A stretch of 64,000 nt of DNA from Candidatus Saccharimonadota bacterium. GTDB lineage: Bacteria > Patescibacteriota > Saccharimonadia > Saccharimonadales > Saccharimonadaceae. Each line of letters opens with the position of its first letter. Within the stretch, counting starts at the first letter, position 1. This document shows, one piece after another, positions 8,719 to 19,131 of the stretch. The notes below the pieces were generated by a model. That model was not told the DNA's origin. It did not search any database and saw only the letters and a list, made by a program, of their open reading frames with translations. The stretch covers positions 1-64,000 of the forward strand of contig JAFRBS010000005.1 of assembly GCA_017404725.1 (NCBI GenBank), read 5' to 3'. A program made the position numbers and the translations under genes.

Positions 8719-10026
8719 CTAGGATCCTGAAACAGTCCCAGTGTTTGGACAGCCACCGACGTTCGGATTCCTTTCGTCTCCTTCGTCGTCGGATGTCCAA
8801 CAGTTGTGAGTAACCCAGAAATTTTTCTCCGTAGTCATACCAGAGTTACCAGTGAGCTGAGCCGCAAATTCCGGATACGGAAAGTTTGTATCGATAAGCT
8901 CGACCCGTGTATCTACGCGACGGAAAAGATCGTTTGCGCGACCGGTCGAATCGATTTGGGCCTGGACACCAACAAAGTTCACCGTAGTGTCACAAAGTTT
9001 ACTACCGTTACCCGTGCAAAGCTGAATGGAAAAATCAGTCTTTTGATCGCCACCATACGGGAGCTCGACGCGAAGAAGAGTTGTAGCTAAGTTGCGCGAC
9101 CCGCCTCGGAATGGTTTCGGAAGCTCGATATCTACACTACACTGGAAATCGGCAGTGCCGGTACATTGGACTTTGACTGGAGAGTCGTCGGCTTTGTCAG
9201 AATTTTCAATAACTTTTTCTTTCGTATAATATTTACTACCCGTACCTACGCCGCCGGAAGAATTCGGCTGGAAAAGGAGGGAGAAATGGTCAGTGCCATC
9301 GTGAGAATTGTTCACAGTGCTAAGCTCACCTAGAGAGAACCAGCCAGTGTCCGTCTGGTAAAAATCGACAGCGATAGGCGGAATATATTTTTGGGCCTCA
9401 TTCGCATTAACGAACCAGTCGCTATTAAACTGCTGGAGGACTTGGTTTAGGTATTTTACGGACGGAGAAGACCAACTAAAGCGAATGCCGTGGACATTAT
9501 CGAGATTAGTCGCGGAGCCGTCTGCGAGATTACCAGTTCGGATCGGAATGACACGAATACGTTTTTCAGAAGATAATTCTGCGCGATAATCTTCGAGATC
9601 TTCGCTTAATTTTACGCAGGTATAAGCCTGTTCCATATCCTCAGAATTCGGGCTACTGCTAATAGTCTCTTTAATTTTTACTTCCCCGCCAGAATTGCCG
9701 TTACGCTTTAACGCGAGGGCGACGGTGTCGCAGCCACCATTTTGCATTGCCCAAATAATATGCTGACAAGTATTGCCATCTTTTTTCGCAACTTCGCCCT
9801 GGTCGAGACATTGATGATACTTCACGAGAACGATTTTTGCGTCTTCGACGCCAGCGAGCGCAGAATCATAGGCAGATTTTGAAAGATCGTCGTTAGTAGA
9901 TTTTGTAGCCTCGGAGACCATGATGCGAATAAAGCTCATAGTAATAACACTTAAAAGTAACATTGTGAAAATTACGACGTAAAATGCGGCGGCACCTTTT
10001 TTAGATTGATATAAACGATTCATCAT
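8719..10026 (-). CDS. PilX-like pilus-associated protein
   Basis: A 435-residue protein with an N-terminal hydrophobic helix (about 11-33) after KKG, resembling PilX-type proteins but without the Glu5 of classic pilins. The large outer domain contains several Cys pairs (CTGTADFQC, LCTGNGSKLCD, and Cys near the C-terminus), suggesting disulfide-stabilised folds. It is the last gene of a four-gene unit, overlapping the preceding gene by 4 bp. It probably joins a pilus or pseudopilus tip, inferred from context. No ATPase, prepilin peptidase or assembly platform gene is in the window. Confidence 0.75.
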   Translation of the reverse strand: MMNRLYQSKKGAAAFYVVIFTMLLLSVITMSFIRIMVSEATKSTNDDLSKSAYDSALAGVEDAKIVLVKYHQCLDQGEVAKKDGNTCQHIIWAMQNGGCDTVALALKRNGNSGGEVKIKETISSSPNSEDMEQAYTCVKLSEDLEDYRAELSSEKRIRVIPIRTGNLADGSATNLDNVHGIRFSWSSPSVKYLNQVLQQFNSDWFVNANEAQKYIPPIAVDFYQTDTGWFSLGELSTVNNSHDGTDHFSLLFQPNSSGGVGTGSKYYTKEKVIENSDKADDSPVKVQCTGTADFQCSVDIELPKPFRGGSRNLATTLLRVELPYGGDQKTDFSIQLCTGNGSKLCDTTVNFVGVQAQIDSTGRANDLFRRVDTRVELIDTNFPYPEFAAQLTGNSGMTTEKNFWVTHNCWTSDDEGDERNPNVGGCPNTGTVSGS

Positions 10027-10844
10027 TTTGTTGCGTCTCCTATTCCTGTTGCCCTAGTGGCAAAATTAAATTTATTAATTGCGCAATACGCAAAGTCGGT
10101 ATTCAAATTGTCTGGTTGGTCGGTGCAGAAATTTCCGATATCCATAATGTTGACGCCGCCACGAATAGTTGCGAGAATAAAGGTTCCGGAATAGAACGAG
10201 TGACGAGTTTCGTTATGATATTTCGGTTCGAAAATAGTAAGATCGTAGAGCGCGAGATTATCTTCAGATTTTTCGAGTAACTCTGTAGGTTTTTCATCCA
10301 GGTTAAAGCTTACTAGCTGGTTACTACTAAGGCCGTTACATAGCGCCCTACCCAAATCGTTGACCTGGAGCAAGCGAAAATCGTCGATAGTTTCCTTACC
10401 CCCTGAGCCGTCCTCCTTAGGATAGGTTACTTTCATACGTTGATCTTTTAAGGAATCTCCACCAGGTTTAGTATAGGTCTGATTTTCATCATCTAAGATA
10501 TAGCCGGTATTCCAAAGATAAGTATATTTGCCTGTACAGAAAATTCCTCTCGAAGGAGCCGAAAATTCTTTATTAGCTCGGGCAATTTTAACCGTAGCGG
10601 TTTGTTCTTTATACATGACATCGATCTTTACTTCGTCGGGCTGGACCGAGGCGGAAATAGATCTAGTAAAGTTATCGATTAAATCTTCGCCGATAGTATT
10701 TACGGATTTGATAGTCATTCCTTTCTGATAAATCGTAATAACGTGCGTGACGAGAAGTGCAATCGTAATTAGTAAAATTCCGAGAAAGGCACTTGCGAGA
10801 GATAATTCGACAATAGTAAATCCGCGTTTATCGTGTGCTTTCAT
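10023..10844 (-). CDS. prepilin-like protein (minor pilin)
   Basis: A 273-residue protein with a type III signal: basic KAHDKRG, cleavage after Gly8, then FTIVE with Glu at mature position 5 and a long hydrophobic helix. The C-terminal outer domain is large for a minor pilin and has Cys residues (FCTGKYT, ALCNG, FCTDQPD, AYCAIN). It would be processed by a prepilin peptidase encoded elsewhere. It overlaps its neighbours by 1 and 4 bp, showing tight co-translation. Its exact place in the filament is unknown. Confidence 0.85.
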   Translation of the reverse strand: MKAHDKRGFTIVELSLASAFLGILLITIALLVTHVITIYQKGMTIKSVNTIGEDLIDNFTRSISASVQPDEVKIDVMYKEQTATVKIARANKEFSAPSRGIFCTGKYTYLWNTGYILDDENQTYTKPGGDSLKDQRMKVTYPKEDGSGGKETIDDFRLLQVNDLGRALCNGLSSNQLVSFNLDEKPTELLEKSEDNLALYDLTIFEPKYHNETRHSFYSGTFILATIRGGVNIMDIGNFCTDQPDNLNTDFAYCAINKFNFATRATGIGDATK

Positions 10845-11617
10845 TATTTTATCTCCTCGATTAATTCTGGATTATATAGACGCATGATTGTGCCGATTGT
10901 GGTCGGGCGAGTGCGACCAGGTGCATTCCAGCAAGTATAGATATGGAAATCGTAAAATTCTGGCTTATCGCTAGCGTAGCCATTATCGTCAAGGCCACGT
11001 GCTTCGCTTTCTACCGGAATGACCCAAATTCCTTCAACGTGAGCAACGTTAGTATATTTAGTGCTTTCGTACATTTCGTCTTCGTTCGAATTCGTCCCAC
11101 TGTTAAAAATTACGCGAGGATTTAAAGCGGCTGGGCGGAAAATATCATTATCTGGTTTCGCGGAGATGATGGTTCGGTCGGGATGATCTGTGTCAATTTT
11201 TCGCGTATTTAGAATGATCGATTTGCTAGAATAAATACTTTTCGGAGAGCTAGCCTCATAGCGGCCGCTACATTCTGAAGGATTTAAATCGGAAAGAGTT
11301 AACGGGAGAATAGCGTTTGAGTCTGCCGCATTGGCAGTAGCTGCTGCCTTAAGAACTTTCCAGATATTCTCGTACTGGCGATTGCCTTTCATAATATCGC
11401 GCTCAGATAGAAAAGAGTTATGAATAAAGCGCAAGACTTCCGACTGGGCATCAATTTCATTTCTAGCCATAGAGAGTTCGAGAGTCGACTCGACAGTCGC
11501 GACGCCGGAATTCATGACGATAACCGAGAGTACGGAAATGAGCGCGAAAACAGCAATCGCGAAAAGAACTTCGATCATAGTATCGCCGCGGCGGGGAGCC
11601 GAGTTTAGTCTACGCAT
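10844..11617 (-). CDS. prepilin-like protein (PilV-like minor pilin)
   Basis: A 257-residue protein. The leader MRRLNSAPRRG is followed by DTMIEVLFAIAVFAL, giving Glu at mature position 5 and a hydrophobic helix, which matches PilV/GspI-type pseudopilins. The outer domain is about 210 residues with two Cys (SECSGRY, YTCWNA). It starts within the end of the upstream gene (13-bp overlap) and ends in a TAATG overlap with the next, so it is an internal operon gene. Confidence 0.85.
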   Translation of the reverse strand: MRRLNSAPRRGDTMIEVLFAIAVFALISVLSVIVMNSGVATVESTLELSMARNEIDAQSEVLRFIHNSFLSERDIMKGNRQYENIWKVLKAAATANAADSNAILPLTLSDLNPSECSGRYEASSPKSIYSSKSIILNTRKIDTDHPDRTIISAKPDNDIFRPAALNPRVIFNSGTNSNEDEMYESTKYTNVAHVEGIWVIPVESEARGLDDNGYASDKPEFYDFHIYTCWNAPGRTRPTTIGTIMRLYNPELIEEIK

Positions 11618-12648
11618 ACATTATCCTCCGAATCAAATTCGATCAGTTCGACTGCGGCAGAGTTAGTGCCGTCAGGTTTTAGACGAACGTTGCGGCGACG
11701 ACCGTTATAGACATATGAATCGCCAGAATCTACACAGAAATTAGCCGCGGTTTTATCGGAAAAATGAGGCACGGAAGAGTCCGAGGTATCTAGGAATTGC
11801 GTTAAAGAGGCGCGGATATTTTGTAGAGTAGTATTCGACGGAGCGTTGCTACAGCTTCCGGCGGCAAAATAATCAGCAGCTACAGGATCGGAAAGACGAA
11901 ATCCGGCTTCGTTCAGGTCGAGCACGTAGGTATGGATAGTGCCGTCAACCGGTGAGCGCACAATCATGACTGCGCCAGACCAGTACTTACCTTTTTCGGT
12001 ATTTTCGATATGACTCGACCAGTCTGGAGTATAAGAGTATTCCCCGCCAGCATAGACGACTTTACATTCGAGATTGTCATTACTCGTAGTTTCATAGGCG
12101 AGAAAATCGGCATGTACGAGGCGCAAGGCTTCGAGCGTAGGGTTAGCGGCTTTTTCGATTCCTTCCGGAAGTTTATGCTCGATATCTATAACGTCACCAA
12201 TAACGTCGTAAACCATAATTTTATCGTTCGGATCTTCGTCGGTATTAAGATTTTCAATACGGGCATCGAAGAAAGCGATTTTTCCGTAGATAGCACAGTT
12301 CGTACGACCGCTTTCGTCCTGAACGGTATTCGTAGCCTGGTCGCCGATAGCATAATTATGTTTACTACTATAGGTATTAACGCCACTATGGTTTTTACTA
12401 ACTACACTACTAGCAAGGGTACACCCAGTCTTATCACGGTTGCCGGCGTTACCACCAAGATTATTTTGGACATCTTCAGTTTGGGAATAAAGGCGACGAA
12501 GAAATTCGGTGTAATCCTGGACGGCGTTATTATAGCGCTGGCGAGCGACGTTCATGCCGGCTCCAGCAGCGACGCCAACAAAAAGCAACGCGGAAACCGC
12601 AAGGAAAAGCGAAACTTCGATAATGGTGAAGCCTAACCTCCTCTTCAT
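11605..12648 (-). CDS. prepilin-like protein, first gene of the pilin operon
   Basis: A 347-residue protein with leader MKRRLG and the mature start FTIIEVSLFLAVSALLF (Glu5 present), a standard type IV pilin-like N-terminus. The large C-terminal domain is cysteine-bearing and rich in Asn and Asp. The promoter is TTGAGA-17-TATAAT with the -10 (complement of 12656-12661) 7 nt before ATG, so the four-gene pilin unit starts leaderless here. It may be the base of a minor pilin complex, judged from gene order only. Confidence 0.85.
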   Translation of the reverse strand: MKRRLGFTIIEVSLFLAVSALLFVGVAAGAGMNVARQRYNNAVQDYTEFLRRLYSQTEDVQNNLGGNAGNRDKTGCTLASSVVSKNHSGVNTYSSKHNYAIGDQATNTVQDESGRTNCAIYGKIAFFDARIENLNTDEDPNDKIMVYDVIGDVIDIEHKLPEGIEKAANPTLEALRLVHADFLAYETTSNDNLECKVVYAGGEYSYTPDWSSHIENTEKGKYWSGAVMIVRSPVDGTIHTYVLDLNEAGFRLSDPVAADYFAAGSCSNAPSNTTLQNIRASLTQFLDTSDSSVPHFSDKTAANFCVDSGDSYVYNGRRRNVRLKPDGTNSAAVELIEFDSEDNVCVD

Positions 12649-12680
12649 ACTAATAATTATACACTAGCAGAATGAATTTC

Positions 12681-13094
12681 TCAAGGAGTTTTCGTAAGCT
12701 CATCATAGAGGTCGTAAATATATATTCCCTCGTCATCCGTAGGGGCATAATCGCGAGCTCTTTCTAAGTCTTCAATGACCTTTTCGTTGTTCCCTCCGAG
12801 GTGATAATAGTACTCAATTCGAGCTTTAAGATTATAGTAAAGCGCAAAGGAGTCGGTATAATTTTCGACGGCACGATCCAGGCGTTTTTCGAGATCATCC
12901 GAGGCGCCTTTTTTGAAGTCGTAATCTATCACGCGATTATATAGGACTTTATATTCGGCATACGGGTCAGACTCTGGCAGCAGTTGGACGAAAAACCAAG
13001 GGAGAAAGCGCCAAAGGATGATACCAAATACTACGGTGCCTATGATAATAAACTCCACGATAAGTCGCTTTTTTGACGATACTTTAGTTCCCAT
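12681..13094 (-). CDS. membrane-anchored protein with TPR-like helices
   Basis: A 137-residue protein with one N-terminal membrane helix (about 13-35) and a helical outer region. The pattern around ALYYNLKARIEYYYHLGG...EKVIEDLERARDYAP resembles a tetratricopeptide-like repeat. Start 13094 is chosen because TATAAT (complement of 13101-13106) lies 6 nt upstream; an in-frame ATG 15 bp earlier falls inside the promoter. It stands between the large secreted protein and the pilin operon, with its own promoter, and may act as an accessory scaffold. Confidence 0.75.
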   Translation of the reverse strand: MGTKVSSKKRLIVEFIIIGTVVFGIILWRFLPWFFVQLLPESDPYAEYKVLYNRVIDYDFKKGASDDLEKRLDRAVENYTDSFALYYNLKARIEYYYHLGGNNEKVIEDLERARDYAPTDDEGIYIYDLYDELTKTP

Positions 13095-13115
13095 ATCTAC
13101 ATTATACACCGGTAA

Positions 13116-16100
13116 CTAGAATCGTGGGGCAAGTTCGCGCATATAGACTATTGTGGCTTGGGAGAGACGATTTGCCTGGTTGTAAGCCCAATAGTACGCG
13201 TCTGGACGGAGATTAAAGATTTCGGCCGGAGTAATCGAACCGGTATTTGCGAGATTTTCGTTGTATTTAATTTTACCGATGCTATTTACGCCCGGATAGG
13301 CACCCGCGGTACGATTCAGAGTTAGCGTCTTTGCAAACACTGGCCCGTTGAAGATTATGGTTTTAGTACAGACATCAGCGCTACCATGTCCAGCATCACA
13401 CGTGTTAATGTCGCCAAAGTTGGCTTGATTTTCGTTTCCGGTACTTCCGCGGGCAAAGAGCCAAGCGTCAATTTGGGTTACTTCCGGAGCAATCTTAATA
13501 TTATTTGCGATAATGATGATTTGCGGGATATCGCCACCGCCTTGGTAGACTTCGCTATTTCTAGATTGTAGCCTTAAGGCGCTGTTGATGTCGGAGCAAG
13601 TCCCGGAGCCGACACAAATATTACCGTTTATTCGGACATTGCCGTCGATTTCGATAATACGCGTTTTGCCTTTATCGCCAGGGTGTTGGTTTTGGATAAT
13701 CGAGCCAAGGTTAATATACGTCGAGGTCTTATAATATTCATACAAAACTTCGTCGCTATTTTGGAGGGTGCTATAGTAATCTCCGGATATCGCAGATTTG
13801 TCGCTCGGAGTATAGCGGTTGCGGACTTGGGCTAATATGCCGGTTGATGGGACATATCCGTAATTTGCTAAGCCGACAGACTTCGAGTTAGAGTTGCTTG
13901 CGCACTGGCTATTCGAGATGGTTACCGAAACGAGCTTACAATACGCCGTATTTTTCTCAGCTCCACCAGTATTAATATAGCCTAAGGAAGCGCCAGAAGC
14001 AAAGCCTCTAGAATTTCCGCCAACGACCGCAAGCGTATCAGTCCAGGAACCGAAGAGTTTGCCGACTCGAGTTTTGTTCGACTGGGAAGTAGTAATGTTG
14101 CCCTGAGTATAGAAGCCACCCCAGGCCTGAAAATTAGGCTTCTTCGCGATTGTGCGGCAGGAAGCGGACGAGACGCGCCAATATGGACTTGCGCCATTCA
14201 TAGCATAGCCACTAACGCCCTCGACTTCTCCGACGGTTAAATCTTTCTTACTAGTGATGCCATGGCTATCGGCATGCCAGACGCCTACAGCAACGCAGTA
14301 TTTCGAACCTGGTTCAACATCTGGAATGCTTTGGGAATATGTCTGGCGAGAACCACTTTCGTCTACGCCGTCGATACTATATAGTTCCCCGTCTGGGTTG
14401 ATCGCTCCGTATCGATCGCTAATAATTCTCTCTGGCTCACTTATCATATGGGACCCAAGTTTATTCTTATAGTAAGACACGACATCATTATTTCCCCATT
14501 GGCCGTTACTTGGGAAGGTAGTAACGCCACCCTTTAGCGCAGATCCATCACCTGCGTCGTAATCCTTGTCTACGATGAAGCTAATAAAGCGGACTACGGT
14601 ATTTCTTGGAGTCATAGTGAGATACTGTTTATTCGCATCTACGCCTGGATTAAGGCGCTTGTTTGCCGTAACAGTATAGCTGGAATCGACTGCCTCACCA
14701 GCATGGACGACGTCTCCGCCGGTGCGAATACTAGATTTTGTCGTCGTGGTAAAGTTATATGGGACTTTAACTTTAGCAGATGTTTCGGTCCAATAGTCGT
14801 CGAATCTGATCGAATAGGTCGGACTAGAACCTTTGCGGCCCGGAGCGTTATATTTAAGTTTTGAGACGCTTTTCTCGTTTGGAGAGCAATACCACGAATC
14901 ACTAGTTTTACTACCTGAATGGTAGCCTAGTGAGCAACCGGTATGTAAAGTGGCTTTATAATTATCATTATATTCATAACCATCCTCGTCTTTTTTTGTT
15001 GTCCAGCTAATTTGCCAGCCGCTCTTTTCACACTGTTGGCTATCACATTCTTGCTCTAAGTAGCCCCATTTCCAACCACGATAATTATACGCTTCACCAA
15101 CTGAGCCAAGATGAACATTAATGATGCTGTTGTATCTCGGAGCCAAATAGCTATAGTCACAGCTAGAATTACCAGTCGAATTATATTCGCAAACAGCTTC
15201 TCTATCTCTATAACTGCCACAGTTATTACTGCTTCCGCAATCAGCGCTGTTTTTATCGTGCGCATAGGCGATCCAGGCGTCGATTTTGCGATAGTTGAGG
15301 GTCTGAGCGAGAGTCTGACCGGCATTAGTCGAGTCGATGCCGCCATAAGCCTGCTGACATTTTTTGTCATTAGCGAAGCCAGGAATACGATATGTGTTAC
15401 TCATTCCTAGACCCCAGTTCCAGCCATTGACGCCAGGAACACAACCGAAGCCCGAGTACTGATTTAAGTTCTGCGAGGCATTAAATCCGCCGGTGGCCTG
15501 GTTCTTTGGCGAATACATCTGGAAACCATAATCGTAGAATATTTCTTCTGGCTTAAATCTATCATAGAAGCTAGTAGGTTTCGCTAGGCCTTTTTCGTTT
15601 TGTTGGAGACTTTGAGTCGCGGTTAGATTACTGCGGTTAAAGAGGTAGTCATCATGGCTGTAGCCAGACAGGTAGAATTCATTATTCGGGAATATGTTAT
15701 TGTCGAAGGATGACGCCCGTTTCCTGGACGTAGTGTATTGGTCTAGGCCATAACCGTCTCGTCCGGATCCAGTGACTGCTTGGGCGCCGAAACAGAGAGC
15801 GTGGCGGAACTGAATCTCGTCGCCAGGTTTCGCGTAGACCTCGCCTTTCCAAGTCGAGCCGTTTGTGTAATTAGTAACTTGGGAGCGGGCGAGCGTGTTA
15901 CCGTAGTTTGCTGTGCTTTTCGCGTCAGAGAAGATTTGGGTACAGTACGTCGGAGGTGGTGGGCGACGAAGTTTAATACAGATAGTAGAGTAACCCGTAT
16001 CACCGTTTGGCAGGAACCAGGCAACATTATTTGTAGAGCGAATGTTGAAATTTTTCGTTTGGTATTGGATCGTTTGACAGACTGTGACCGTAGAGTTTTG

Positions 16101-17699
16101 CGCAACGGAGACGTTAACGCTATTAATATTTACTGTCGCGACATGGGTTGATCCTTCCTGAGATAGGCTTGACATGCTGATTATTCCATTAGCTACATTC
16201 CCAGTGCTATAGTTACTTTGCACTACGGTCCAGGTGGTAGAAGCTCCTGCAGCAACAGCTTTATTATAAGTCTCGTCATCGACATCAGAACCGATGCGGT
16301 GAGAGAAGGTAACGGTTTGACTGGATTGACCTGGATCCATCTCGATAGTCTTTATCCTCGAATCTGAAGGTCCCCACTTTTCATCCTTGCCAGTAGTTTG
16401 ATCGCCAACGCTAGACTGAGAATAGAAATCGCCAGGATCGCCCTTCGGGTCGGGACGATGAAGCTTTACGCAGATTTTGGAGTTGGCGGAATCATTCACA
16501 GGGCTTATCTTGGACCCTTCGCCGATTGTAAAAGTTTTTGTAGAATATTCAATTTTTTCGCATATAACTTTATATTCGCCTGGATTAATCTTTACTGTCT
16601 GGGTATTACTTGCTAGGACCTTATTCCAAACATACGATTCGCTATCGTCGTTATAACTTCCGTCAACTTTGCCCATATCCGTCAATTTTATTGTACTCTT
16701 ATCAACTCTTGAGCTCGAATCCATATTCCAGTTATCGGCTTTCGTAACAGTATATGTAGTCTGTGCATTTGTATTTTTGAATTTTTTATATTTTTCCTGG
16801 GTAGTACGGATACCTAGAACAAAATTAAATGTAATATCTTTAGAATCTTGGTCAGCCGGAACCTCGACGGCGACTTCTTTGCTCTTATTTTCGCCATTAT
16901 TATACCATCTACTAGAGTCGGTTTCTGTACTTACAGTCTCAGACCCAAGATTTACAATTCTGGCCCTAGAGTAGAAGTTGCCTTTTGTTCGGCCATAGCA
17001 GAACCAGCCCAGTTCGCTGTTTGGACCGTTCCATTTAATCGGTTTGCCGCTACTGTCTTTTCCAAAGGCTTCATCGTCATCCTTCATGGCCTGGTAAGCA
17101 GTGAAAGCTCTGTTTGGAGTTATCGGATTCGGGTCGGTCGTAGCTCCATTCGTCCACGGCGTTTGCTTGGCACGTAATGGATTACTCCAGCTGTGATCCT
17201 TCGAATCCATGAAATCAATACCTAGGTCCGTCTCGTACGGGGAGGTATCAGATTGGCTAGTATTCCAAAAAATGTAACGGTTGCCTATTTCTGAGCGTGG
17301 TCTATTGTTGTCACTTTGCCAACGGACATGTTTGACCTGAGTAGAGGTCGCTCCGTACCCAGTCCAATCTCCTGTCCCCGATTCCGTCTCAAAACGAACT
17401 AAGGCGTAGAAACCGTCATAATTTCGGCAAATATTTTTAACTTTGACTAGTCTAGACTCGTCCCACCAACTACGGGCGTTCGGTACTATAGCTTTGTCTT
17501 CGGTTTTCTTGTCGGTGTATTCATAATATATCCAACCCGCACCATGATAACAAGCGGCCGAGGCACTGCTACAGCTACCGCCGCTATATCTACCTCTACC
17601 GGTAGCGGCATTGGCCGTTGAGGTTATCGTCAGACCAAGGCCTGCACAGACTACGCCGAGTGACGATATAGCTAAGACTCGTTGTAATTTCTTATTCAC
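13116..17699 (-). CDS. 1527-residue secreted, cysteine-rich surface protein
   Basis: The largest protein in the window. It starts with a signal peptide (about 1-32, ending TANA) and has no clear C-terminal membrane anchor. Residues roughly 270-590 contain a duplicated unit in which a Cys-Tyr/Lys-Thr strand (ICEKIEYSTKTF, then VCQTIQYQTKNF) is followed by a C(V/I)KL(H/R)RP strand. Many Cys lie in the middle part. The C-terminal 250 residues look beta-rich (GNVRINGNICVGSGTC...IIIIANNIKI). No family was recognised with confidence. Its start overlaps the upstream membrane-protein gene by 8 bp. It may be an adhesin or pilus-associated tip protein. Confidence 0.8.
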   Translation of the reverse strand: MNKKLQRVLAISSLGVVCAGLGLTITSTANAATGRGRYSGGSCSSASAACYHGAGWIYYEYTDKKTEDKAIVPNARSWWDESRLVKVKNICRNYDGFYALVRFETESGTGDWTGYGATSTQVKHVRWQSDNNRPRSEIGNRYIFWNTSQSDTSPYETDLGIDFMDSKDHSWSNPLRAKQTPWTNGATTDPNPITPNRAFTAYQAMKDDDEAFGKDSSGKPIKWNGPNSELGWFCYGRTKGNFYSRARIVNLGSETVSTETDSSRWYNNGENKSKEVAVEVPADQDSKDITFNFVLGIRTTQEKYKKFKNTNAQTTYTVTKADNWNMDSSSRVDKSTIKLTDMGKVDGSYNDDSESYVWNKVLASNTQTVKINPGEYKVICEKIEYSTKTFTIGEGSKISPVNDSANSKICVKLHRPDPKGDPGDFYSQSSVGDQTTGKDEKWGPSDSRIKTIEMDPGQSSQTVTFSHRIGSDVDDETYNKAVAAGASTTWTVVQSNYSTGNVANGIISMSSLSQEGSTHVATVNINSVNVSVAQNSTVTVCQTIQYQTKNFNIRSTNNVAWFLPNGDTGYSTICIKLRRPPPPTYCTQIFSDAKSTANYGNTLARSQVTNYTNGSTWKGEVYAKPGDEIQFRHALCFGAQAVTGSGRDGYGLDQYTTSRKRASSFDNNIFPNNEFYLSGYSHDDYLFNRSNLTATQSLQQNEKGLAKPTSFYDRFKPEEIFYDYGFQMYSPKNQATGGFNASQNLNQYSGFGCVPGVNGWNWGLGMSNTYRIPGFANDKKCQQAYGGIDSTNAGQTLAQTLNYRKIDAWIAYAHDKNSADCGSSNNCGSYRDREAVCEYNSTGNSSCDYSYLAPRYNSIINVHLGSVGEAYNYRGWKWGYLEQECDSQQCEKSGWQISWTTKKDEDGYEYNDNYKATLHTGCSLGYHSGSKTSDSWYCSPNEKSVSKLKYNAPGRKGSSPTYSIRFDDYWTETSAKVKVPYNFTTTTKSSIRTGGDVVHAGEAVDSSYTVTANKRLNPGVDANKQYLTMTPRNTVVRFISFIVDKDYDAGDGSALKGGVTTFPSNGQWGNNDVVSYYKNKLGSHMISEPERIISDRYGAINPDGELYSIDGVDESGSRQTYSQSIPDVEPGSKYCVAVGVWHADSHGITSKKDLTVGEVEGVSGYAMNGASPYWRVSSASCRTIAKKPNFQAWGGFYTQGNITTSQSNKTRVGKLFGSWTDTLAVVGGNSRGFASGASLGYINTGGAEKNTAYCKLVSVTISNSQCASNSNSKSVGLANYGYVPSTGILAQVRNRYTPSDKSAISGDYYSTLQNSDEVLYEYYKTSTYINLGSIIQNQHPGDKGKTRIIEIDGNVRINGNICVGSGTCSDINSALRLQSRNSEVYQGGGDIPQIIIIANNIKIAPEVTQIDAWLFARGSTGNENQANFGDINTCDAGHGSADVCTKTIIFNGPVFAKTLTLNRTAGAYPGVNSIGKIKYNENLANTGSITPAEIFNLRPDAYYWAYNQANRLSQATIVYMRELAPRF

Positions 17700-18426
17700 T
17701 ACAGGCCTCCATGGCGCGCTTCATTCTTGCGATGATTTGGTCCGTATATGACATGTCTCCGTTTTCGTCGAATTCTGTATTTTCGTCTTCGGGAGACGCT
17801 TCGGCTACCTCTTTTCCGGCAGCCTTCATGGCGGCGATACTGGCTTCCTGAATCCGTAAGGACGTTCGCCTGATAGAAGCTAGTTCGCAGTCCGAGAAAC
17901 TATCCGGTTCCATTTCGACTTCTGACATGACACTTTCCATCTCGTCTGCCGCAGTTTTTAGCAGATTATTGTCTACTAGAGCATTAATGTATTTGACCTG
18001 GGAAGCAGAGTAGTCGTTTATCGATAAACCGGTAAATTCGTCGCCATTAAGATCGGGTTTTAAGGCCGCTACTTCTTCGGGGATTTCTTCAGTATAGTTT
18101 TTCTCTTCCGGAGTATATACCGCTTCGTCGCCATTATCGCCCGAAGAAGATGATGGCGATTCCGTATTATTTAAGACCAATATGGTTATTAGCGTAATCA
18201 TAGCCAAGACGACTACTCCAGCAGAAATAATTCCAGCAAGCATTAGATGTCTCTTCGTAACTCTTGACTGCCTAGCTTGTTTATCAGGAGTTTCTTTTTT
18301 CCGCCTAGTTTTTATTCTGGTAAAAAAGTTTCTTCCTTTCCCGGCGACAGAGTCGCTCAAAATATTCTGCGAAGAATAGATAACATTATCCTCTTTCTTA
18401 GAACTTCCCTCCACAGAATTATCCAT
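17692..18426 (-). CDS. single-pass membrane protein upstream of the large surface protein
   Basis: A 244-residue protein with a basic cytoplasmic part (about 1-60), one membrane helix (about 62-85), and an acidic, Ser/Glu-rich outer region with two Cys (SDCELAS, EACSE). Start 18426 is chosen over an upstream TTG because a TTGATT-17-TTAAAT promoter is positioned to start transcription close to this ATG. The gene overlaps the 1527-residue protein gene by 8 bp, so the pair is an operon; the protein may be its membrane partner or export helper. Confidence 0.75.
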   Translation of the reverse strand: MDNSVEGSSKKEDNVIYSSQNILSDSVAGKGRNFFTRIKTRRKKETPDKQARQSRVTKRHLMLAGIISAGVVVLAMITLITILVLNNTESPSSSSGDNGDEAVYTPEEKNYTEEIPEEVAALKPDLNGDEFTGLSINDYSASQVKYINALVDNNLLKTAADEMESVMSEVEMEPDSFSDCELASIRRTSLRIQEASIAAMKAAGKEVAEASPEDENTEFDENGDMSYTDQIIARMKRAMEACSE

Positions 18427-18504: not shown

Positions 18505-19131
18505 TTAAATTGCATATTTTTCAATCACGCTACGCACCTCTTTGGTGTATAGCCGCCCCCCCGCGGAGTTGTTTCCGAGATATAAGTCATAGTATAGTTG
18601 TAAATCTCCAGGGGAACTCCACTGATGAATCGATAGCTTCTTGGCGTCGTTGCTAATGTCAAGGAAAAAAAGAACTACCTTATAATGGTTCCCGTCAAAC
18701 TCTCTGTCCTCTATCGTAACATCGGAGCAGTAATCAATGTTCCAACCAAGACTAGTGGCGTAAGTTTTTAAGTTTTCGAGGGTCTCTTCGGCGTGTTTTT
18801 TCCAACCTTTAATACTACAGTGGTACTTCAGGTCAGAACGCTTAACGTAGCCAAATTTTCCTTTCTTATAACGAATTCTGATCCAATCGCCTTCTGAGCC
18901 ATACTTGATAACCTTATCGTCTTTTTTTAGGATTGCCACAATTTTGCTTGAGGCTGAAGCCTTTTTGTAGACTTTAAGTTTATTGGGTTTGACCCACCAA
19001 GGACTAGTTTCGGCTTTCGCTATAGGTGAACCGGTTGTGGATGATATTTCGGGCATAAACCCTATGCCTGCAAATAGCATACACAACACGATTAGAACAG
19101 TAGTTAATTTCCTAGGTATTATTTTTCTCAT
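18505..19131 (-). CDS. secreted SH3b-domain protein
   Basis: A 208-residue protein with a signal peptide (about 1-41), a bacterial SH3 domain (about 46-102: KLKVYKKASASSKIVAIL...FGYVKRSDL), and a C-terminal domain with two Cys (KYHCSIK, DYCSDV). Bacterial SH3 domains usually bind peptidoglycan or peptides. Unlike most first genes here it has a 70-nt leader and a perfect AAGGAGG Shine-Dalgarno. The leader, RBS type and monocistronic setting suggest possible acquisition from another lineage. Confidence 0.8.
   Translation of the reverse strand: MRKIIPRKLTTVLIVLCMLFAGIGFMPEISSTTGSPIAKAETSPWWVKPNKLKVYKKASASSKIVAILKKDDKVIKYGSEGDWIRIRYKKGKFGYVKRSDLKYHCSIKGWKKHAEETLENLKTYATSLGWNIDYCSDVTIEDREFDGNHYKVVLFFLDISNDAKKLSIHQWSSPGDLQLYYDLYLGNNSAGGRLYTKEVRSVIEKYAI

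Follow-up and report, generated by a model that had tools for sequence, protein, structure and literature searches.

A giant secreted protein encoded beside the minor pilins of the type IV pilus T4P-1 in a Saccharibacterium, a candidate tip adhesin

Layout of the cluster and its minor pilins

The window, i.e. the whole stretch of 64,000 nucleotides that was analysed, comes from a host-dependent Saccharibacterium with ordinary type IV pilus (T4P) genes, whose genome is assembled into 739 kb in 32 contigs and is 98% complete. It contains a cluster of seven packed genes, all on the minus strand, extending from position 8719 up to 18426 or 18444 (window ORFs). The genes, their positions and the 8-bp overlap given in the earlier note on this DNA were all confirmed. 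In the order of transcription the cluster comprises:

17692..18426, minus strand: transmembrane (TM) partner (W7), with a short cytoplasmic N-terminus, one TM helix and an acidic helical outer part
13116..17699, minus strand: giant protein (W6), 1527 aa, with a type I signal peptide, a variable N-terminal part of ~950 aa, a conserved C-terminal module (residues ~950-1527) and the C-terminal end RELAPRF
12681..13109, minus strand: small membrane protein (W5), 142 aa, with an N-terminal TM segment and a helical outer part
11605..12648, minus strand: GspH/FimU-like minor pilin (W4), 347 aa, cleavage motif G|FTIIE, with Glu5
10844..11617, minus strand: GspI/PilV-like minor pilin (W3), 257 aa, G|DTMIE, with Glu5
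10023..10844, minus strand: GspJ/PilW-like minor pilin (W2), 273 aa, G|FTIVE, with Glu5
8719..10026, minus strand: GspK/PilX-like minor pilin (W1), 435 aa, G|AAAFY, without Glu5; in its model, a 66-residue N-terminal helix is followed by a beta-rich domain

Neighbouring genes either overlap by 1-13 bp or are separated by gaps of at most ca. 33 bp, and the cluster is therefore regarded as one packed unit. The overlap of W7 with W6 is exactly 8 bp (17692-17699), and the W7 start at the ATG at 18426 is backed by homologues; an upstream TTG lengthens the ORF to 18444. Since the order and strand of the module are kept in about a dozen congeners, the cluster is not a chance run of ORFs. Scans for promoters and terminators gave counts near the shuffle expectation. 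Just upstream of the cluster lies a gene coding for a secreted SH3-domain protein (window positions 18505-19131); at the same site, next to ftsL, congeners carry genes for unrelated secreted or membrane proteins instead.

The last four genes code for proteins with prepilin N-termini, and alignments place Glu5 in W4, W3 and W2 and its absence in W1, such an absence being the mark of GspK/PilX (PMC7541494). Matches of the window pilins themselves are weak, with N_methyl of Pfam below its cut-off and IV_pilin_GFxxxE of NCBIfam at its cut-off, those of their relatives reaching 7e-9 for PilX_N, 1e-6 for gspI and 1e-5 for PilV. The order H-V-W-X is the same as that following pilA-pilD in relatives (L069, L089-L092, TM7i and HMT-352), and the PilX profile finds matches in 182 of the 197 genomes of the order. 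On sequence grounds the four are thus identified as the canonical GspH-I-J-K (FimU-PilV-PilW-PilX) minor-pilin set. They had been described as having unusually large, cysteine-rich outer domains; the size is in fact ordinary, ca. 200-425 aa being normal in the other genera of the family, and the cysteine richness holds clearly for W1 (2.3%) and mildly for W4 (1.7%), not for W3, which at 0.78% is below the mean of 1.09%. The giant is also mildly cysteine-rich (1.9%).

The AlphaFold model of W1, of moderate confidence (mean pLDDT 68), comprises a helix at residues 10-75 and then a beta domain. Foldseek found no PDB match to it below E 0.001, the best being scattered viral jelly-rolls, and these weak matches agree with the jelly-roll-like outer domain reported for TM7x PilX1 (PMC12206443). 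When three pilin profiles were searched against PDB sequences, the only matches were weak ones to the Geopilin N-terminus, for two of the profiles.

The giant protein and its membrane partners

The giant belongs to a family of secreted proteins that is not represented in Pfam or NCBIfam; the profile of its C-terminal module has matches in 169 of the 197 genomes of the order. Among 109 members of at least 550 aa, an N-terminal hydrophobic segment was found in 102, in 97 of them followed by a signal-peptidase-like motif, and an internal TM segment in none. Both the length and the sequence of the N-terminal two thirds are variable, in contrast to the conserved C-terminal ~580 residues, at whose end stands the near-invariant motif (T)YxRELAPRY. 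The AlphaFold model of the C-terminal module is beta-rich and, like that of PilX, of moderate confidence (mean pLDDT 64) with no significant fold match: Foldseek returned nothing from the PDB below E 0.001 and no propeller among the fold matches, the best, non-significant one being a beta-sandwich of the CARDB/Spo0M type.

The protein resembles PilY1/PilC in several respects: it is soluble, has a type I signal peptide, a poorly conserved N-terminus and a conserved C-terminus (PMC7541494, PMC13190605), is encoded together with FimU/PilV/PilW/PilX, of which PilX lacks Glu5, occurs in several versions per genome and occasionally bears a VWA domain. It differs in gene order, in the presence of a TM partner, and in the organism that encodes it, which has no secretin and is not a classic diderm. 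Moreover, Pfam searches of 34 giants gave no match to Neisseria_PilC, the PilY1 propeller domain, and membership of the giant in the PilY1 family, which this domain defines, was rejected. A VWA domain was found in one of the 34, a paralogue (L056:5739-10472) in which the inserted domain recalls the VWA-bearing variants of PilY1.

In each of three genomes, two contigs (L191/L192 in G103, L193/L194 in G242, and L195/L196 in G244) share an identical terminal stretch of 141 bases, which belongs to the 3' end of giant genes found at different places in that genome. Such shared ends suggest that giant genes were recently copied or exchanged and then collapsed by the assembler.

In 57 of the 73 scorable cases in named genomes, the gene directly preceding the giant codes for a TM protein; in the other 16, including TM7i and HMT-352, no TM protein is encoded at that position. 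W5 was found in only some congeners. The earlier note had also listed a TPR-like anchored protein; neither the 142-aa nor the 250-aa protein has a Pfam match for TPR, and both have an N-terminal TM segment followed by a helical outer part.

Place of the cluster in the T4P-1 system

The cluster lacks both an ATPase and a secretin, as had been noted; this is not true of the ATPase at the level of the genome, since pilB, pilT and pilC are encoded elsewhere in it. pilM-N-O-x-pilB lie on contig C16 (L034), pilT-pilC at the end of contig C9 (L036), and pilA, coding for the major pilin, adjoins the prepilin peptidase gene pilD on contig C7 (L071; checked with Pfam), so that PilB, PilC, PilM, PilD, PilA and PilT are all encoded. 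A secretin was sought by PF00263, with no match anywhere in the genome. A second, divergent PilB/GspE-like ATPase is encoded at L035:4590-6221 (G000:C29) and also at L073, L074, L079, L081 and L087; it is conserved in the genus and has no pilM beside it, and each genome has only one pilM.

Outside the genus the system forms a single operon, with the order TM-giant-pilM-N-O-(x)-B-T-C-A-D-H-V-W-X in other genera of the same family (L089-L092), and it is likewise one operon in other families (L068, L069). Among the matches listed, pilM is immediately preceded by the giant gene, in the same orientation, in 30 of 38 genomes from other genera of the family (median gap 59 bp) and in 45 of 49 genomes from other families (median gap 156 bp), i.e. 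in 75 of 87 in total. A set of 80 loci from named genomes was also gathered by PilM, comprising its closest relatives rather than a random sample and including neither TM7x nor Southlakia; sequence upstream of pilM is available for 76 of them, and the giant directly precedes pilM in 74 and is separated from it by a small ORF in the remaining two. The named giants adjacent to pilM include those of TM7i (CP075337.1; 1142 aa), of the HMT-352 single-cell genome (989 aa) and of OX335598.1. The adjacency recurs in a further order of the class (L178) and, as a weaker case, in another class of the phylum, where pilM of a T4P locus is immediately preceded by the gene for a 708-aa giant-like protein (L181:8110-10236). 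In other classes, most of the genes whose products are distantly related to the C-terminal module lie outside T4P loci. By its sequence and gene neighbourhood, the giant is recognised as a previously unnamed family heading the T4P-1 operon across this lineage.

The arrangement in the genus is different, with pilM following the giant in none of 15 cases among the matches listed. Of its 65 genomes with PilX, 19 have the giant next to the minor pilins, as in the window, and 46 have it away from them, at other loci and usually with the TM partner; the absence of a link between giant and pilin genes in relatives, which the earlier note named as refuting its proposal, thus holds for ca. 70% of the genus. 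The state of pilV follows the same division, the gene lying beside pilX in 18 of the 19 linked and 3 of the 46 unlinked genomes (Fisher 5e-12); in one of the latter (L185) pilV stays at the end of the pilM-pilD locus. On the PilX tree, some of whose deep branches lack good support, the unlinked state needs at least two changes, and therefore the window arrangement looks ancestral to the genus, with the giant-pilin linkage lost at least twice. The unlinking thus appears as a secondary loss; outside the genus, the partnership of the giant is with the T4P machinery itself. Judged by these gene orders, the operon is split in the genus and the giant gene has evidently moved next to the minor pilins.

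T4P-1 is already known from other Saccharibacteria. In TM7x it corresponds to T4P locus one (TM7x_00415-00475), which comprises the machinery and five pilins (PMC12206443), and in Southlakia to T4P1 (SEML1_0104-0116), an essential locus (PMC10633639). T4P-1 is essential in both genetically studied Saccharibacteria (PMC10633639, PMC12206443); it forms the filament needed for twitching, with the filament shown in TM7x, and locus one is the only system of non-G1 clades (PMC12206443). The genome studied here has the same machinery, the same four minor pilins and the major pilin; it differs from the published loci in its split operon, with the giant gene placed next to those of the minor pilins. 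Both published ranges contain 13 genes, equal to the count from pilM through PilX in relatives, and therefore, going by gene number, these loci apparently begin at pilM and leave out the upstream giant. What is new is a component of T4P-1 that had not been recognised, the giant; the pilus type itself was known. A full-text literature search for PilY1 together with Patescibacteria turned up only one paper on saccharibacterial pili.

A proposed role of the giant and alternative explanations

The cluster is probably the minor-pilin and tip half of the organism's single T4P-1, split from an ancestral operon that included pilMNO-BTC-A-D as well. That the giant and the minor pilins belong to T4P-1 is well supported by the gene orders described above, and the most economical reading of the giant itself, drawn from the analogy with PilY1, is that of a candidate PilY1-like tip adhesin built on a non-homologous scaffold. 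The proposal of the earlier note that the minor pilins form a tip complex with the giant is strengthened by the near-constant presence of the giant in the T4P-1 operon across the order and by the PilY1-like layout. According to the proposed mechanism, the minor pilins H, V, W and X would assemble in the membrane on PilC as a priming complex, and the giant, exported by Sec, would use its conserved C-terminal module to dock on the end capped by PilX. Prior to extension, the giant might be held or loaded at the membrane by the TM partner, together with W5 where present. Polymerisation of PilA by PilB beneath the complex would then carry the giant outward as the tip of the filament, its variable N-terminal domains facing outward and possibly binding the host, which PilT-driven retraction would pull in. 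A one-to-one complex of the giant and the minor pilins is not proven for the 46 of 65 genomes of the genus in which their genes are unlinked.

The same genes have been considered under three other readings. The earlier note saw in the cluster a new, stand-alone pilus-like apparatus, in keeping with its lack of an ATPase, a platform protein and a major pilin; the genome does, however, encode all three at other sites, and in relatives the ordinary T4P operon ends with these four pilins, a standard set throughout the order. This reading was rejected on the basis of the genome-wide machinery and the relatives' operons, and is considered highly improbable. Nor do the pilins of relatives, as a rule, lie in a standard T4P locus devoid of the giant, for the standard locus includes it. 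The giant might alternatively be a substrate, exported to the surface or released by the minor pilins acting as a pseudopilus similar to that of type II secretion systems. GspH-I-J-K is indeed the pseudopilin set of those systems too, some proteins in the family of the 257-aa pilin match the NCBIfam models gspI and gspJ, and T4P-1 is known in this organism from genes alone. However, the ancestral operon is shared with the retraction ATPase gene pilT and with pilMNO, the genome has no PF00263 match that would indicate a secretin, and T4P-1 has been published as a filament required for twitching (PMC12206443), which makes export of this kind unlikely.

Finally, the giant could be a surface adhesin in its own right, anchored by its TM partner and merely co-transcribed with the T4P genes. 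Pairs of a giant and a TM partner occur in many congeners at the radA/ruvC and rpsL loci, which have no pilus genes, and similar pairs are found in other classes (L173, L176, L177). On the other hand, the adjacency to pilM is kept in most genomes, spanning numerous families, and also in a second order of the class, and the T4P linkage is retained in the 16 of 73 named cases from which the TM partner is missing, TM7i and HMT-352 included; we hold an independent adhesin to be quite unlikely. One of the loci from another class, L173:9878-16666, has a tandem of two giant-like proteins, each with a small membrane-type protein encoded before it, and no pilus genes nearby.

The reading as a T4P-1 tip adhesin can be extended, tentatively, to the whole of Patescibacteria. 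The giants might be T4P tip adhesins evolved independently of PilY1 and non-homologous to it, with one C-terminal dock and interchangeable N-terminal host-binding regions; the paralogues at scattered loci in the genus, some with identical 3' ends, might then be swappable tips of one pilus, setting or shifting the host range. As a secreted protein that heads the T4P-1 operon and is encoded by most genomes of the order, the giant offers a defined gene for genetics in TM7x, TM7i and S. epibionticum and, should it be the tip adhesin, its variable N-terminus is the first place to seek host specificity. PilX2, an adhesin candidate with a host-binding phenotype, belongs to a second pilus absent outside clade G1 (PMC10633639, PMC12206443).

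Large adhesive modules are likewise presented at the pilus by PilB of Streptococcus sanguinis (PMC8179133) and by PilX2 of TM7x (PMC12206443). Unlike these modular adhesive minor pilins, the giant is not a pilin, having a type I signal peptide but lacking a prepilin motif. In some congeners (L186:4281-7607 and L187:8454-11006) it is PilV, or a protein like it, that bears a fused outer part of very large size, giving proteins of 850-1108 aa in all, with Listeria-Bacteroides repeats and, in L186, also a Fib_succ_major domain.
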